From Methanorbis rubei (GTDB taxonomy: Archaea > Halobacteriota > Methanomicrobia > Methanomicrobiales > Methanocorpusculaceae): 64,000 nucleotides of DNA. Of the stretch, positions 42,191 to 49,140 are shown piece by piece (the first letter of the stretch is position 1; every line of letters starts with the position of its first letter). Where the stretch lies: contig NZ_JAWDKB010000004.1 in the NCBI RefSeq assembly GCF_032714495.1, positions 186,001 through 250,000 on the forward strand, written 5' to 3'. Below the pieces are notes generated by a model. That model saw only the letters and a program-made list of their open reading frames with translations. It searched no databases and was not told where the DNA came from. Made by a program: the position numbers and the translations under genes.

Positions 42191-42886
42191 TTAAAGTACC
42201 TTCTCAGCACCAGTACCGGGAATCGCGTACTTCTTTTCCAGCCTGCCGATTGCTATCGTTGCGACCGTCACAATTGCCAGATAAAATATGCCTACCGCAG
42301 CAAATGCTTCAAAGTAGGCAAAGTACTTGCTTGCAATAATCTTTGCAGCACCAGTCAGCTCAATCACCGTCACCACGTATGCCAAAGACGAGTATTTGAT
42401 CAGATAGATGAACTCGTTCGATACGCCGGGAAGTGCTTTTCGCAGTGCCTGAGGAATCACGACATAGCGGATTGCCTGAATTTTTGTCATCCCGAGAGCC
42501 TGGGCCGCAGTCATCTGGCCGCCCTTAATGGACTGCAGAGCACCGCGGATGTACTCTGAGTTGTAGGCAGAGTTGCAGAGCGTGAAACCAACCAATGCCG
42601 ACAGAAACGCGCCGAGAACGATACCAATTGACGGAAGACCAAAGTAGATGATGAACAGCAGCACAAGAAGCGGGCATCCGCGGAAAAATATCACATACAG
42701 CTGCGCTCCCCATTGAAACGGCTTTGCTCCGTAAACGCGGGCAACTCCGATCAAAAGCCCGAGGAAAAACCCAAGCGGCGCAGTAAGAGCCACAAGGGCG
42801 AGGGTAACAACAAGTCCGTCCCAAAGTGCGGGAAGAAGAATGTTTACCCAGAACGGGATGTCGAGTTCAAGCCAGCTGAGATCCAT
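42191..42886 (-). CDS. Amino-acid ABC transporter permease (HisM/GlnP type)
   Basis: A 231-residue permease with about five helices. LVVTLALVALTAPLGFFLGL opens. EYIRGALQSIKGGQMTAAQA and LGMTKIQAIRYVVIPQALRK form the EAA loop that contacts the ATPase. It belongs to the polar-amino-acid uptake class. It ends a three-gene operon, permease, ATPase, permease, without a binding-protein gene in the window. Confidence 0.92.
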   Translation of the reverse strand: MDLSWLELDIPFWVNILLPALWDGLVVTLALVALTAPLGFFLGLLIGVARVYGAKPFQWGAQLYVIFFRGCPLLVLLFIIYFGLPSIGIVLGAFLSALVGFTLCNSAYNSEYIRGALQSIKGGQMTAAQALGMTKIQAIRYVVIPQALRKALPGVSNEFIYLIKYSSLAYVVTVIELTGAAKIIASKYFAYFEAFAAVGIFYLAIVTVATIAIGRLEKKYAIPGTGAEKVL

Positions 42887-42888
42887 TG

Positions 42889-43629
42889 TTACTCTTGATA
42901 AGTTCCCATAAATGCACGGGTGCGTTCAAATGACGGGCTGGTCGGGATATCGGCAGGTCGGCCGCGTTCAACGATCTCACCGTTTTCCATAAACAGAATA
43001 TCGGTCGCAAACGAAGTTGCAAAATGCATTTCGTGTGTCACAATCAGCATGGTCATGCCGTCAGCCGCAAGTTTTCGCATGACTTCAAGGACCTCGCGTT
43101 TGAGTTCAGGATCGAGAGCTGACGTCGGCTCATCAAAGAGCATGACATCAGGGTCCATCGCAAGAGCTCTGGCAATGGACACGCGCTGCGCCTGACCTCC
43201 GGAAAGCTGTGCAGGATAATAATCTGCACGATCGGCCAGACCCACACGCTCAAGCTCGAACATTGCTTTTTTTCGCGCCTCGGCCTTGTCCATCTTTTTG
43301 ACTTTGAGAAGTGCAATCTCCACGTTGCGAACAGCAGTCAGATGATCAAAGAGGTTGAAGTTCTGAAACACCATGCCCATCTTCTGGCGGTACTCGTTGA
43401 TCTTTGCACCTGAGTGAGTGATCTCTTCGCCGTTGAGGTAGACGGAGCCGGAGTCCGGCACGGTCAGCTGGTTGATGCACCGAAGAAGCGTACTTTTTCC
43501 CGTGCCTGACGGGCCGATGAACGCTTTGGTCTCGCCTTTGTAGACATCAAACGATACGGACTTGAGAACCTGCAGATCACCATAGGATTTGGAAAGATTC
43601 TCCACCCGGAGAATGGGAGTTTCACTCAT
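42889..43629 (-). CDS. Amino-acid ABC transporter ATP-binding protein (GlnQ type)
   Basis: A 246-residue ATPase. The Walker A is FIGPSGTGKSTLLRCINQL, Q-loop VFQNFNLFDHLT, signature LSGGQAQRVSIARAL, Walker B VMLFDEPTSALDPEL and H-loop VTHEMHF. SVYLNGEEITHSG is typical of the GlnQ/HisP class. It overlaps the permease upstream by 4 bases and ends 2 bases before the other permease. Confidence 0.94.
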   Translation of the reverse strand: MSETPILRVENLSKSYGDLQVLKSVSFDVYKGETKAFIGPSGTGKSTLLRCINQLTVPDSGSVYLNGEEITHSGAKINEYRQKMGMVFQNFNLFDHLTAVRNVEIALLKVKKMDKAEARKKAMFELERVGLADRADYYPAQLSGGQAQRVSIARALAMDPDVMLFDEPTSALDPELKREVLEVMRKLAADGMTMLIVTHEMHFATSFATDILFMENGEIVERGRPADIPTSPSFERTRAFMGTYQE

Positions 43630-44324
43630 GTCTCTGTCACCTCATTGTTGCCGAATCCTGGGATGCGGACTTTCTTTTCCACCCGCTGGATGAGCATCAT
43701 GCCTCCATAGTTGAGGAGGATGAAGATTACTGCACAGGTAAGATACAAAATCATTGGTTCGCCGGTCTTGCTGATGATCTGACTGGTTCTGGTCAGAAGT
43801 TCAGCCACACCGATCACATACGCCACGGCAGAGTCGGTTAAGAGAACCGGATATTCGTTTGACCAGCCGGGAAGGGACAGTCGCAGGGACTGCGGCAGGA
43901 TGATGGTTCTGATACTCTGCCATCTCGTCATGCCAAGAGACCGCGCTGCAAGCATCTGACCATCAGCGATGGATAAGATTGCACCGCGAAAGATCTGGGA
44001 CTGGTATGCAGCACTTCTGAGTCCGAGGACCACAACTGCAACCGCAAATGCCGGTATATCAAATCCGGTCATCGGGAAGAGTGCGAAGTAGAAGAGAAAC
44101 AGAAGTACGATATTGGGCAGGCCGCGGAAGAACCAGACATACACGTCAACTGCCCGCTTCACAATCCAGGGGCCGTAAACCTGTCCGAGCGTGAGAACGA
44201 TGCCGCAGAGAAATCCGATAAAGAGCGAAACTCCGACTAAGGCAAGAGTGACGCACATGCCCTCAAAGAGGTAGGGCGCGGATTCAACTACGGCAGTTAT
44301 TCCTTCAAACATGGACAGTCCCAA
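43626..44324 (-). CDS. Amino-acid ABC transporter permease
   Basis: A 232-residue permease similar in design to the one at 42191. GMCVTLALVGVSLFIGFLCG opens, FFRGLPNIVLLFLFYFALF follows, and the EAA loop is FRGAILSIADGQMLAARSLG, then MTRWQSIRTIILPQSLR. The two permeases presumably form a heterodimer. It is first in the operon. Confidence 0.92.
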   Translation of the reverse strand: MGLSMFEGITAVVESAPYLFEGMCVTLALVGVSLFIGFLCGIVLTLGQVYGPWIVKRAVDVYVWFFRGLPNIVLLFLFYFALFPMTGFDIPAFAVAVVVLGLRSAAYQSQIFRGAILSIADGQMLAARSLGMTRWQSIRTIILPQSLRLSLPGWSNEYPVLLTDSAVAYVIGVAELLTRTSQIISKTGEPMILYLTCAVIFILLNYGGMMLIQRVEKKVRIPGFGNNEVTET

Positions 44325-44385: not shown

Positions 44386-47300
44386 TCAGGAGATTTTGCA
44401 GATGTTTCCATCCATTATGATGAGTCCGTGGCCGATAGCATGGTTGATTCCTGCTTCGATGCGGTCCTTGACCTGCGCGGTTGCTTTGAAGCCGAGAACT
44501 ACAGCGGTGTGGCGAACGAGATCTCCTTTGGGAGTGGAGAACTGTTTGGCAAGAATTGTTGAAGCGGCTGCGGCAATCTCATCAAGCGAGACGTCGGCAG
44601 GAGACCATTTGGAGAGGCGTTCGCGCGGAGAAACAGCACGCTCAGGAACAAGAAGGAACCCTTCATCATCGCGGACAAGTCGGCCTTCGTTAATCTCAGC
44701 GGCGGCAACTGATGCGATGCGGTCACGCACAAGGCCGGTCATGCGCGGGACGCGGCCGAGTTCTTTGATGCGTGCAGCAAGAATAGTTTCAGAGACCGGA
44801 CCTTCCACGGAAACTATCTGCACGATTGCGGTGCCAAGGACCGAGTCCGGGACAGAAGCAAACTGATGATAGCTGCCAAGAGAACATTCTTCGCATGTGG
44901 TGTAGGGCACAAGCTGGAGGCTGAGTTTAGCAGAGGAGGCTGAGGTTGAAACCGGAGCGGCGGCTGGCGAGGAAGCCGCGGGAGACGGAAGCTCTTCAGA
45001 GACTGTGGATTTCTTTGCAGATGATTTTTGTTTGGCTGCCTGCACCGATTTTTTCTTCGGAGCTTTTTTGGCTGCTTCAATTGCGTCAAGAAGATCTTTG
45101 GTGCAGGACGCGGGATGCTGATACCATTCGGTTGCCCAGATGCGAATCAGGTTCCAGCCGAGTCCTTCCAGCACCTGAGTGCGGAGTCGATCTCGGTCGC
45201 GCGCAACTTCAGATGACCAGTAGTACGGACCATCACACAAAATTCCTGCGAGATAAACTCCCGGTACTTTCGGATTTTCAACAGCGATGTCGATCCTGAA
45301 TCCTGCGCACCCGACATTCTTCGAAACAGTGTAACCGTTGTCCTCCAGAAGTCTGCCGACGGTATCTGCGAAAAGACCTGCCACATCATCAGGTGCGTCA
45401 TCTGCTGCGGCAAGCGGTGCCGCAGGATTTGCCGCGTAACTGAGGAATGTTGCGAGCGCAGAAATTCCTGAAGAGGATCCTGCATCAATCGCAAGATCAG
45501 TTCCCCGGAAGTTGGCAAACACCACGCATCTCTCGCGGGCGCGGGTGATCAAAACATTGAGTCTTCGTTCACCGCCATCCTGATTCAAGGGGCCGAAGTT
45601 TTTGCTGAGCTTGTGGCTCTCGTCAAATCCATAGCCGATACTGATCAGCATCGTGTCGCGCTCATCACCCTGCACGGTTTCAAGATTTTTCACGAAGAAG
45701 TTCTCGCCGCTCTCGGGCCGCATCAGAGCTTCAACATCAGGATTGTCACGAAGCAGAAGTTCTACTTCATGGCGGATGACCTCCTGCTGACGAGTGGAGA
45801 AGGTTGCAACACCAAGCGTCTTGTCAGGGAATCTGCGATAGTACTCAATCACCGCTTCGGCAACAGCTTTTGCTTCGCCGCGGTTCACGCCTGCTTTGCC
45901 GCGCTCGTAGACAGAGTCCGGCAGGTGAACAAACGAGAGGCCGAGATCAGGAGTCTCATGCATGGGAGAGGGGAAGACCATCAGGTTGCCGTCATAGAAC
46001 TCCTGATTGGACACCGCAATCAACGACTCGTGACGCGAGCGGTAATGCCAGCGCAGACGTTTCGTCTGGTACGACTGCTTGCACACGTTGAGCAGACTCT
46101 CCATGTCGGTGATGCTTGCAACCGACTCAGCTTCATCCTCATCAGGATCGCTTGCGATCTGATCAAAGAATGCGGTTGGCGGAAGCTGGCGCGAGTCGCC
46201 CATCACCACAAGCTGCTGGCCACGTATCAGTGCGCCGAGAGCGTCTTCGGGTCTGACCTGGCTAGCCTCGTCAAAGATGATGATGTCAAACTGTACCGAG
46301 CGCGGGTCAAGGTACTGGGCAACGGACAAAGGACTCATCATAAAGCAGGGTTTAATCTGCTGGATGAGATGACCGGATTTGCTCATGAGCATCCGAATCG
46401 ACATGTGGCCGCGCTTTCTGTTGAACTCACCGGTGAGAACTCCCATCTCCGAGTCGCGGGATGCGCCTGAGTAGAGTTCGGGAATTTTTCCGTCAAGGAT
46501 TGCTGCAATTCTCTTGCTGTTTTCAGAGACTGCATTGCGGTCGCATGTAATGAAGGCAACAATTTTTTGCTCGTGAGGGATTTTGGAGAATCTGGCAAGG
46601 ACCGGCCGCTCAGAAAGTGCGTCGCGCAAAAGTGCGTCAGCATAACCGGTAAGAAATGCCGGCACGAGATCTCCGGGCACAAGTTTGTCGGTGAAGAGAG
46701 GATCAATGACAGGGGCCGCGGCAGTTTCTCTGCACTGATCGGTGTAGGAGAGGAGTTTACTCCAGTGGATGATGCCGTCGATATCCGAAGACCAGAGATC
46801 GCAACGTTTGCGCTGCTCGGCAAACGTTGGATCTTCCATCTCGGAAACTCCAATCCGCGCAAAAAGTTTTGCGCGGGCATCGCTGTGAGCGAGGGCGGCT
46901 GACTCAACCTCTGCGAAGAGCGGTGTTACTGCTCCGGCAGTAATCGATCCTGAGCCAAGAAGTTCGAAGGTTTTTGCGGTTGCAAGACCCTCCTTCACCA
47001 TGAGTCGGACCGCAGTTATCCAGTCAGCGTATCTCGTGAGCAGCGCAGGATCGGTTTCCTCTCCGCGCCAGACCGGAGCAAATACTTCGGCATACAATGC
47101 TTCGTCCTTCATCCATTCATCGCGGGCCGTGAGATAATCGCGGGCGTCAAGAAGGTCGATGAGAATCTGTGGATCAGGCGGAACAGCGCCGGTATAGTAT
47201 GAGGAAATTTCTGTTTTGATCTCTTTGTAAGATCCTGAAAACATTTTGGCGAATGTTCCTTTGCCGGCAACTTCGCGGAACGCGGCATAGAGTCTGCTTG

Positions 47301-49140
47301 GGTTGCGCAAAAATATTTCCGGCCGGAGCGACGCAAGAATGCGTCCGCGATGCGCAGAAATTTTCTGCATGTTGGTTGTGAGCTTCGCAACTTCTGCGGG
47401 TCTGTCCCAGACAGGATTGGTGAGTGTGTTTGCATCAGCAGCGAACTCGCTTGTCAGCAGACGGCAGGACTCAACCATGCGCGACACACCGGTCTCCTCG
47501 CGGGGAACCGGAACGCCGGTGAGATCAAACAGCCTTCGCATGGAGGAGAGAAGATTTTCAATCGCAACTCGGTAGGTTTCAACAAGCTCAAGAATTTCAT
47601 CGCGGTCCTGCGGCAGGACAAGTCCCGGACTGCAGCCCGCCCATGGATGACGGGAGAGAGAGCGTCCGGTCGGCATGAGTGTTGGCAGAAGCGCTTCGAT
47701 GTCATGCAATGCGGCGATTGCATCCTTGTACTGATCAGGAGCTATCTCTTTTGCATTCGGAATGGCGACGCGGGGGATGCGGCGGGTCGGACCTTCGGGG
47801 CTGTCCTCATACTCGTAGCGGTACTGTTCGCGGATGCCGAAGAGATCGTACGGCGTGAATGCACATGCTCCGACAGGTTCGGCAAGCTCGCGGCAGTAGC
47901 TGTCAAGTTCATGCCGAAGAGAATCAATCTGAAGATGAATGCTGTCTGCGGGTGCGGCAGTAGTGCCAGGATGCTGGATGCAGCGTTCGAGTTCGCGGAT
48001 GACCTCGCCCTTCTTGGCTTTCTGGCTGTGGAGTTCGAGACAGAACCGGGAAAGTCCTGCGGTGTCAAGACGTCTCTTTACCACTTCGAGTGCTGCCATT
48101 TTTTCGGAGACGAAGAGAACCGTCTTGCCGCGGGCAAGCATCTCTGCTATCATGTTGGCAATGGTCTGCGATTTTCCGGTGCCGGGCGGTCCTTCGACCA
48201 CAAGATTTCTGCCAGACTTCGCCTCTTCGATGACTGCAATCTGGGACGAGTCAGCGTCCATAATATTGTAGGATTTTTCGGAAGGAAGTCTGAGGTCGAC
48301 CTCATTCTCCGGAAAAGTAGTGCCTGCTTCACTTGCATCAGTTGAGCCGGGACGGAAAAGTTCAGCGATGAGCGGATGAGTCTCCAAGGAAAAGCCGTCG
48401 CCCCATGATTCAGGGTCGAGGTCTTTGAACATCACAAATTTGCGGAAACTGAAGAGATCAAGTGCGATCTCAGGACAGTACTCGAAACCTTTTCCACGGA
48501 TTGCAGCATCAACTGCCGCAGCATAAGCCGTGAGACCGTCAGCAGTCTCGGGCATCGTAAACTCAGGCAGCATTACTCCCTGCTCGGCAAGTTTTGCGGT
48601 GAGGGAGAGAGACGTTACGGCATCGTCGCCGGTCCAGGTAAGAACATAGTTGTCTTTGACCTTCTGGCGGGTGAGTTCCACAGGGATGAGAAGGAGCGGG
48701 GCTTTGTAGAGTTTGTCAGGATGCTCGGGTTCGGACCAGCCAACAAAACCGAGAGCAAGGTAGAGGACCGGATAACCCTGCTCTTCAAAGACGGTTCTGG
48801 ATTTATTGGAGAGAGCATACAATCTCTGACGCAGGCTGATGTCATCGTACGGTGTTTTGAGAATGGTGTCCTGCTGTTTTGCGGTTGGCTTTACAAACGC
48901 AGGGTACTTCCACAGATTTTTTTCTTCAGCTTCGGCTTCTGTTTTTTTACCGGCAGGGTAAAACTTCATGCCTTTTTCGCAGATGACAAGGCTGTGATAA
49001 ACCGCTGCCGGCAGACCGTCGCTGATCTGGATACTGCGGTTATTGGAAGGTTTGTAATTGAGAAGATTATTGCGCAGGGTGAGGTCTAAGAGACGTGAGC
49101 GCAGGGTGCCAAGCTCAGATGTTGTTTCGCCTGTTTTCAT
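44386..49140 (-). CDS. Giant DUF4011 superfamily 1 helicase with a fused nuclease domain
   Basis: A 1584-residue cytoplasmic protein. The N-terminal 240 residues match DUF4011 (LRSRLLDLTLRNNLLNYKP). Walker A GPPGTGKSQTIANM lies at about 317. A 600-residue insert follows. Walker B is FDEASQ at about 957 with GDSRQLPP, and motifs V and VI are VQGDERD (about 1157) and RRLNVLITRARE (about 1192). A Vsr/DUF559-like PD-(D/E)xK nuclease comes next (GFRIDIAVENP, CDGPYYWSSEVARDRDRLR, IRIWATEWY, about 1280-1345), then a low-complexity linker and a DUF3320-like winged end. This architecture recurs in bacterial and archaeal defence islands. The upstream ATG at 49227 is possible, but 49140 starts at the conserved block. 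It is a single gene. Confidence 0.9.
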   Translation of the reverse strand: MKTGETTSELGTLRSRLLDLTLRNNLLNYKPSNNRSIQISDGLPAAVYHSLVICEKGMKFYPAGKKTEAEAEEKNLWKYPAFVKPTAKQQDTILKTPYDDISLRQRLYALSNKSRTVFEEQGYPVLYLALGFVGWSEPEHPDKLYKAPLLLIPVELTRQKVKDNYVLTWTGDDAVTSLSLTAKLAEQGVMLPEFTMPETADGLTAYAAAVDAAIRGKGFEYCPEIALDLFSFRKFVMFKDLDPESWGDGFSLETHPLIAELFRPGSTDASEAGTTFPENEVDLRLPSEKSYNIMDADSSQIAVIEEAKSGRNLVVEGPPGTGKSQTIANMIAEMLARGKTVLFVSEKMAALEVVKRRLDTAGLSRFCLELHSQKAKKGEVIRELERCIQHPGTTAAPADSIHLQIDSLRHELDSYCRELAEPVGACAFTPYDLFGIREQYRYEYEDSPEGPTRRIPRVAIPNAKEIAPDQYKDAIAALHDIEALLPTLMPTGRSLSRHPWAGCSPGLVLPQDRDEILELVETYRVAIENLLSSMRRLFDLTGVPVPREETGVSRMVESCRLLTSEFAADANTLTNPVWDRPAEVAKLTTNMQKISAHRGRILASLRPEIFLRNPSRLYAAFREVAGKGTFAKMFSGSYKEIKTEISSYYTGAVPPDPQILIDLLDARDYLTARDEWMKDEALYAEVFAPVWRGEETDPALLTRYADWITAVRLMVKEGLATAKTFELLGSGSITAGAVTPLFAEVESAALAHSDARAKLFARIGVSEMEDPTFAEQRKRCDLWSSDIDGIIHWSKLLSYTDQCRETAAAPVIDPLFTDKLVPGDLVPAFLTGYADALLRDALSERPVLARFSKIPHEQKIVAFITCDRNAVSENSKRIAAILDGKIPELYSGASRDSEMGVLTGEFNRKRGHMSIRMLMSKSGHLIQQIKPCFMMSPLSVAQYLDPRSVQFDIIIFDEASQVRPEDALGALIRGQQLVVMGDSRQLPPTAFFDQIASDPDEDEAESVASITDMESLLNVCKQSYQTKRLRWHYRSRHESLIAVSNQEFYDGNLMVFPSPMHETPDLGLSFVHLPDSVYERGKAGVNRGEAKAVAEAVIEYYRRFPDKTLGVATFSTRQQEVIRHEVELLLRDNPDVEALMRPESGENFFVKNLETVQGDERDTMLISIGYGFDESHKLSKNFGPLNQDGGERRLNVLITRARERCVVFANFRGTDLAIDAGSSSGISALATFLSYAANPAAPLAAADDAPDDVAGLFADTVGRLLEDNGYTVSKNVGCAGFRIDIAVENPKVPGVYLAGILCDGPYYWSSEVARDRDRLRTQVLEGLGWNLIRIWATEWYQHPASCTKDLLDAIEAAKKAPKKKSVQAAKQKSSAKKSTVSEELPSPAASSPAAAPVSTSASSAKLSLQLVPYTTCEECSLGSYHQFASVPDSVLGTAIVQIVSVEGPVSETILAARIKELGRVPRMTGLVRDRIASVAAAEINEGRLVRDDEGFLLVPERAVSPRERLSKWSPADVSLDEIAAAASTILAKQFSTPKGDLVRHTAVVLGFKATAQVKDRIEAGINHAIGHGLIIMDGNICKIS

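Follow-up and report, generated by a model that had tools for sequence, protein, structure and literature searches.

A putative defense helicase-nuclease retained across Methanocorpusculum and its close kin

The stretch of Methanorbis rubei DNA analyzed here (64,000 nucleotides; hereafter the window) encodes a giant helicase-nuclease. We consider it slightly better than an even bet that this is a single-protein, modification-independent DNA helicase-nuclease of the PDC-S37/Hhe/ProA kind, residing as a fixed chromosomal gene in Methanocorpusculum and its kin. Judged from the sequence, defense is its likeliest role, and domesticated genome maintenance is the main rival. The defense reading holds at the level of the protein family, and the reading of the locus as a defense island fails in the window. 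A larger version of the architecture has been known since 2013 (PMC3710099); what is new is the distribution as a core gene of a genus. We found no description of this distribution in the open-licence literature, and the word “helicase” is absent from the main text of a comparison of 176 Methanocorpusculum genomes (PMC10035134).

Gene model and domain organization

The gene lies on the minus strand and runs from an ATG at 49140 to a stop codon that ends at 44386. Analysis of the open reading frame reproduced exactly the coordinates of the single 1584-residue chain proposed in an initial annotation of the window. A TTG start farther upstream, which would give 1613 residues, was rejected because the alignments of close relatives begin at the ATG at 49140. 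The gene and its parts are as follows, all on the minus strand:

44386..49140, minus strand: whole helicase-nuclease gene, 1584 residues, PDC-S37 family (ORF, with PADLOC and NCBIfam profile searches)
48589..49095, minus strand: DUF4011, residues 16–184 (Pfam PF13195, E 1.3e-38)
47941..48258, minus strand: first SF1 helicase part, residues 295–400, with Walker A GPPGTGKS (Pfam; Upf1/IGHMBP2/Dna2-like by profile and model)
46441..47940, minus strand: helical insertion, residues ~401–900, helices from ~377 to 929 (AlphaFold2 model)
45496..46440, minus strand: second helicase part, motifs II–VI (DEAS, GDSRQLPP, QGDERD, GGERRLNVLITRAR) (Pfam and alignment)
45079..45372, minus strand: Vsr-like MTES_1575 nuclease, residues 1257–1354, with D1284 and D1303 (Pfam, E 1.4e-30)
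44596..44865, minus strand: DUF3320/first winged-helix-like domain, residues ~1426–1515 (Pfam DUF3320 at 1426–1472, E 2.1e-9; model)
44389..44586, minus strand: predicted second winged-helix-like domain, residues ~1519–1584 (model only)

From the N-terminus, the chain thus consists of DUF4011, an SF1 helicase of the Upf1 type interrupted by ~550 helical residues, a Vsr-like nuclease and two modeled winged helices. The initial annotation had placed DUF4011, an SF1 helicase with a long insertion, a Vsr-like nuclease and DUF3320 in one chain; each domain was matched by Pfam, and the insertion was all helical in the model (~377–929). The Pfam families of the helicase parts were AAA_11, AAA_12 and AAA_19. 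For the nuclease, the match to DUF559 was weak (E 0.028) compared to that to MTES_1575. Promoter-like and terminator-like sites around the gene showed no excess over shuffled sequences, as judged with a bacterial consensus that is of little use in archaea.

Matches to catalogued defense proteins

PADLOC searches matched the protein to PDC-S37, a single-gene phage-defense candidate, at 1531.2 bits, with residues 1–1576 aligned to positions 1–1540 of the 1550-position profile, a full-length match to a model that was judged without a curated cut-off. This fit supported the initial annotation of the protein as a defense type. The second PADLOC match was to Hhe (652 bits). Two NCBIfam models were also matched, “anti-phage protein ProA” (NF058533) at 1272.9 bits, under its equivalog cut-off of 1500, and Hhe (Gao_Hhe; NF042953) at 931.4 bits over four stretches, under its equivalog cut-off of 2000. 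By the NCBI definitions of ProA and Hhe, the window protein is therefore related to both families but belongs to neither. Searches of the open-licence literature found no paper on PDC-S37 by that name, and no experimental study of the family under ProA as a defense protein or under DUF4011.

Distribution across genomes

The window's genus is taken here as Methanocorpusculum together with close kin, including Candidatus Methanorbis, with one genome per species. A search of the family identified the gene in 23 of 25 genus genomes, among them all 12 with a completeness of at least 90%, and in none of the eight sister-genus genomes. The two genus genomes without the gene are 79% and 78% complete. 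Approximately 3.8 misses were expected from the summed missing genome fractions and two were observed; the genus data fit a gene that is present in all members. Among the 23 carriers, 19 have an intact reading frame of full or almost full length. The gene copies in G022 and G025 run off the end of their contigs, that in G026 is divided between two contigs and has a stop close to an edge of one of them, and in G019 a premature stop removes approximately the last 60 residues, corresponding to the second winged helix. In G031, a second N-terminal fragment (L026, G031:C1:727966-728187; profile positions 9–72) is located just upstream of the full gene and is perhaps a partial duplication.

Of the 199 genomes from the order that lie outside the family, 11 had a match, with the count limited to matches above 400 bits and some of the 11 being fragments. 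A higher count of 92 carriers among 232 order genomes (E ≤ 1e-3) was rejected because many of these were short matches to the SF1 motifs of other proteins. A phylum sample had matches at E ≤ 1e-100 in 37 of 392 genomes and 13 of 136 genera, nine of the 37 genomes being from the window's genus. Methanobrevibacter and relatives (L098–L118, L136 and L158) formed a single clade, in which many rows are longer, up to ~2450 aa, and may be another genus where the gene is common. Relatives were identified at E ≤ 1e-30 in 350 of 72,556 plasmid records, 13 of which cover at least 80% of the query; Klebsiella accounted for 241 of the 350. Only one of 50,697 phage records had a relative at E ≤ 1e-20 (MT836269.1:6168-9896; 79% of the query at 30% identity), and this is an 11-kb unannotated fecal “Bacteriophage sp.” contig that may not be phage.

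Most defense genes come and go between strains. Two such genes served as yardsticks in the same 25 genus genomes: hsdR scored over its cut-off in seven and cas1 scored above 200 bits, the range of CRISPR-associated copies, in 11, so the helicase (23 of 25) is more steadily kept than either. A low-scoring cas1 homolog (~70–134 bits) was found in all 33 family genomes, including all 25 of the genus. It was rejected as an equally universal defense gene because the copy common to all is low-scoring and is array-free in three genomes (G000, G013 and G031), where no CRISPR-like array was found within 15–16 kb around it. The low-scoring copy in G000 (L205:7424-8413, G000:C1) has ordinary-looking neighbors and is perhaps a universal stand-alone Cas1. 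The high-scoring cas1 of G013 (L208:9388-10370, G013:C1) adjoins a 16-copy CRISPR-like array.

Genomic location and neighbors

The neighbors agreed with the initial annotation, which had named transporters and N-glycosylation genes. An ABC transporter lies on one side of the gene, and the genes for a glycosyltransferase and for argininosuccinate synthase flank it on the opposite side. The transporter genes are:

43626..44324, minus strand: ABC permease (BPD_transp_1, Pfam), 61 bp downstream, a conserved genus neighbor outside the defense protein
42889..43629, minus strand: ABC ATPase of the same transporter
42191..42886, minus strand: second ABC permease

The helicase gene is followed by permease, ATPase and permease genes on the same strand in 14 of 15 large genus loci, the exception being G027. 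The gap between the gene and the first permease is 36–70 bp in 13 of these 14 loci; in G019, with its shortened gene, it is 253 bp. When small contigs (G023 and G024) are included, the gene lies directly before the amino-acid ABC transporter in 16 of 22 judgeable genus genomes; the arrangement differs in six (G009, G010, G025, G026, G027 and G029), and G022 was left out of this count. The upstream flank is variable, with at least five arrangements in the genus.

An SBP_bac_3-type gene stands before this transporter in six loci of the sister genus and also in G010 and G025, two divergent members of the window's genus (Pfam was run on one of these genes). In addition, the helicase gene is followed by a DUF5654-cluster gene in G010 and by a nitrilase gene in G026, both of which lie beyond the transporter in the main clades. 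These arrangements make it probable that the helicase gene and the ABC operon became neighbors during the evolution of the genus. The transporter in the window (42191–44324) has no substrate-binding-protein (SBP) gene; the helicase occupies its place, and SBP homologs are found elsewhere in the genomes.

The flanks of 10 genus loci, including that of the window, were scanned with PADLOC at E ≤ 1e-15 (130 neighbors; 10 of 14 prepared loci, from 15 large ones). No methylase model was matched at this threshold among these flanking genes, in agreement with the initial annotation, which had reported none beside the gene. A clear defense candidate was identified in one of the 10 loci, PDC-M47A in G015 (L044:15250-16644; PD-T4-4_A-like), and a PDC-M47B match in the same scan presumably adjoins it (L044:14651-16644, ~2.5–4 kb upstream of the helicase). 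Twelve mad3 matches were rejected as MADS defense, as both of the proteins examined from this set group with ATPases of the ABC type. Four long ORFs in the flanks, of 909 aa (G032), 896 aa (G043), 944 aa (G125) and 984 aa (G197), were rejected as a hidden partner gene because they fall in no common cluster; by eye, those of G032 and G125 are surface proteins, that of G043 is a sensor kinase and that of G197 is a TPR protein. The proposal that the protein acts alone is plausible because only the transporter is conserved as a neighbor.

A second scan, also with PADLOC at E ≤ 1e-15, covered 143 neighbors of relatives elsewhere, from 12 of 29 qualifying loci, minus the last two genes of L148, which were omitted for reasons of size. 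The best 25 of the 87 models matched, each by one protein, included Wadjet JetA–D, BrxL, GajB, a CARF protein, a DRT (reverse-transcriptase)-associated helicase and mad3; SspA and DndA were also among these 25 and may be housekeeping look-alikes. The initial annotation had stated that similar proteins are enriched in phage-defense islands. Some relatives do lie near such genes (those of Wadjet, BrxL, GajB and the DRT-associated helicase), which is a description of these 12 loci and not a statistical measure of enrichment. An island-like or accessory locus was not what we observed in the genus: the gene belongs to one clade present in nearly all genomes, and its site, flanked by housekeeping genes, is for the most part conserved. 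The same annotation had held that conservation as a core gene in all relatives, with no defense association, would count against its proposal. The gene is core within the genus, but not in the sister genus; defense association is nearly lacking at the genus locus, but not for the family.

Descent and selection

In a tree of 105 rows, the 22 genus rows formed one clade with full local support; FastTree gives local support only, and its long-branch warning concerns rows outside the genus. The tree omits G022 (a fragment), L085–L087 (repeat records of genus genomes) and rows covering ≤1200 query residues. Distances in the gene tree were correlated with those of rpoA1 in 20 of the 23 genomes, the other three being without rpoA1 (Pearson 0.79, Spearman 0.63, slope 4.6, median ratio 6.8), with G026 placed differently in the two trees. 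The synonymous divergence of the pair G015/G020 was mosaic, from 2% to 45% by segment. Mosaic excess over shuffles (p < 0.01) was found in 28% of 39 gene pairs, compared to 12.5% of 152 rpoA1 pairs, the pairs being non-independent. These data fit vertical descent with homologous exchange between species, and the scatter across the order fits acquisition by transfer. The row pairs L012/L013 and L017/L018 have mosaic synonymous differences of 2–45% and 3–58% by segment, which suggests homologous recombination in the gene.

The whole-gene dN/dS was 0.06–0.12 in nine close pairs. By part, it was 0.01–0.05 for the second helicase part, 0.00–0.09 for the nuclease and looser for the linker (at least 0.13); values for rpoA1 were 0.00–0.02 in the seven pairs that have it. 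The gene is under purifying selection, and the low values for the whole gene and for the nuclease indicate that both enzymes appear to be in use. Identity between clades was 62–64% for the helicase-nuclease, ~63% for the nearby nitrilase, 77–83% for the transporter proteins and 91–94% for rpoA1.

These findings bear on the main alternative to defense, that the protein is a domesticated genome-maintenance enzyme whose ancestor was acquired as a defense gene and which now acts in repair or replication-fork processing, somewhat like Dna2, which has an Upf1-like helicase and a nuclease. We regard this as possible but rather unlikely. The main argument for it is the steady retention of the gene, including in 12 of 12 well-completed genomes, when hsdR and CRISPR-scoring cas1 are patchy in the same set. 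The single clade with branch lengths that track rpoA1, the housekeeping neighbors and the presence of Dna2 among the fold matches (below) also favor it. However, absence from all eight sister-genus genomes indicates that there is no general need for such an enzyme. Its evolution, faster than that of rpoA1 and the adjoining transporter (although the nitrilase is about as fast), and the mosaic divergence in close pairs also count against maintenance.

Predicted fold and catalytic residues

The AlphaFold2 model of residues 284–1225 (pLDDT 86, pTM 0.61) has two RecA-like lobes around ~550 all-helical residues. Profile and fold searches matched the modeled lobes to Upf1, IGHMBP2, Sen1/SETX and Dna2. 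The fold search, run with the insertion as part of the 942-residue core, gave this helical region no identity. The insertion is also less conserved, with 31% identity to G043 compared to 46% for DUF4011, 66–69% for the helicase and 53% for the nuclease. Helicase motifs I, II, III, V and VI were all found, and all 10 of the helicase columns checked were identical across the 22 genus rows; the few motif variants in the genus include GAPGTGKS in G029 and GDSHQLPP in G009.

In the model of residues 1226–1584 (pLDDT 86, pTM 0.53), the nuclease resembles I-Bth0305I (3r3p, TMt 0.79, E 0.05) and the putative endonuclease 3hrl (TMt 0.69). It is separated from the tail by a low-confidence linker (~1366–1402), and the C-terminal helices and hairpins resemble winged-helix domains in proteins such as cullins and SelB. 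As the fold E-values for the nuclease and tail are weak (best in the list 0.0018, none ≤0.001), we base the winged-helix and nuclease assignments on the TM-scores, the Pfam matches and the description of DUF3320 as a wHTH in PMC3710099.

D1284, the acidic residue of the IDIA motif singled out in the initial annotation, and D1303 are present in all 22 genus rows and in 82 of 83 other rows, the remaining one having a gap. R1314, D1315, D1317, W1329 and W1335 are likewise invariant in the 22 genus rows. At column 1301, all 22 genus rows have Leu, whereas Glu, the usual nuclease residue, is found in 48 of the 83 others; the rest include T (12), Q (5), I (4), V (3) and L (2).

Two further alternatives concern how the enzyme works. 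It could be an RNA-acting defense protein, with a motor that runs on RNA or R-loops like those of Mokosh, Upf1 and Sen1 and a nuclease that cuts RNA or the DNA of hybrids. The nearest helicases by profile and fold do include the RNA helicases Upf1, Sen1/SETX and IGHMBP2, and PADLOC matched MkoA and MkoC to the helicase part. However, the Mokosh matches are limited to the helicase, and the nuclease is of a Vsr-like family and resembles a homing endonuclease, enzymes that cut DNA; we consider this explanation improbable. It is very improbable that the nuclease is spent in the genus, leaving a helicase sensor or roadblock, as the Leu at column 1301 would suggest, given that seven other nuclease residues are unchanged in 22 of 22 rows, Glu is also missing in other rows, and dN/dS is similarly low in the nuclease and the helicase.

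Proposed mode of action and significance

In the preferred reading, a DNA-acting defense enzyme, the two C-terminal winged helices (a predicted fold) would engage foreign or abnormal DNA, as may DUF4011 and the helical insertion. Viral or plasmid DNA could, for example, be recognized by its ends or by single-stranded intermediates of its replication. The Upf1-like SF1 motor, whose motifs are conserved, would then load and translocate in a presumed direction, and the Vsr-like nuclease, with its profile match and two invariant Asp residues, would be expected to cut the invader. The enzyme would read the structure or state of the DNA and not a modification mark, as proposed for such an architecture in PMC3710099, so that no methylase would be needed.

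The DNA defense reading is based on the end-to-end match to PDC-S37 and the scores to ProA and Hhe, the retained helicase motifs and low dN/dS, the relatives near Wadjet, BREX and Gabija-type genes, the plasmid-borne relatives, the order-wide scatter and the mosaic close pairs. Counting against it are the genus locus, which is no defense island (a defense gene in one of 10 loci), the retention unlike that of hsdR and cas1, and the Leu at column 1301.

We speculate, with considerable doubt, that a single capture of a defense helicase-nuclease by the Methanocorpusculum ancestor gave the whole genus a permanent gene for innate DNA surveillance. In the main clades, this gene would probably be co-transcribed with the importer at the place of the SBP gene that is kept in the sister genus, G010 and G025, and its expression may follow nutrient uptake. 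If this is true, then together with fixation in Pseudomonas aeruginosa (a DUF4011 gene) and in Methanobrevibacter and kin, the family would be a recurrent “core innate immunity” gene and not island cargo. The genus locus is also a warning that a gene matching a defense catalogue need be neither in an island nor accessory. A giant defense-type enzyme kept by nearly every sampled genome of a genus offers a case in which the effects of losing it on immunity and on housekeeping can both be followed, and such a test is feasible because Methanocorpusculum species have been cultured (PMC10035134).

Comparison with known systems

The likeness to PDC-S37 extends from end to end, but the window locus is without a defense-island setting (one of 10 scanned genus loci with a defense gene near). 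A defense-rich neighborhood is a usual basis for naming defense candidates and is no formal requirement. Alignment to ProA pairs window residues 10–1552 with positions 360–1902 of the 1903-position profile; ~350 N-terminal profile residues are absent here. Hhe is described by NCBI as a DUF4011 anti-phage protein, but the window protein scores under its cut-off. In the literature, a 2022 survey reports Gao_Hhe in Proteobacteria only (PMC9090908), Gao Hhe is named among systems omitted from a figure in PMC11291487, and PMC12278908 lists Hhe with SF1/SF2 defense helicases and describes Hachiman as a helicase-nuclease that senses DNA damage.

The MTES_1575-type giant protein of PMC3710099, a larger version of the architecture described in 2013 as working without a methylase, shares with the window protein the SF1 helicase, the Vsr-like nuclease, two wHTH domains (the second being by model here) and the lack of a modification gene. 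It differs in having an N-terminal HEPN RNase, for which the window protein has no room (15 residues precede DUF4011). Its transglutaminase-like domain had no counterpart among the best 25 of the 32 Pfam matches of the window protein (E ≤ 1).

Mokosh MkoA and MkoC matched the helicase part only (86.9 and 77.7 bits), with no whole-protein match in PADLOC. The helicase fold is like that of Dna2 and other Upf1-like SF1B helicases, and Dna2 also has a nuclease, but the sequence matches span the two helicase lobes and not the long insertion of the window protein. The nuclease of Dna2 differs from that of the window protein in type and order.

The P. aeruginosa gene is comparable through its DUF4011 domain and its core status, being present in every isolate on the right flank of the defense hotspot cDHS1 (PMC10250203). 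Immune systems abound in that hotspot, whereas the variable flank in Methanocorpusculum and its kin rarely holds any.
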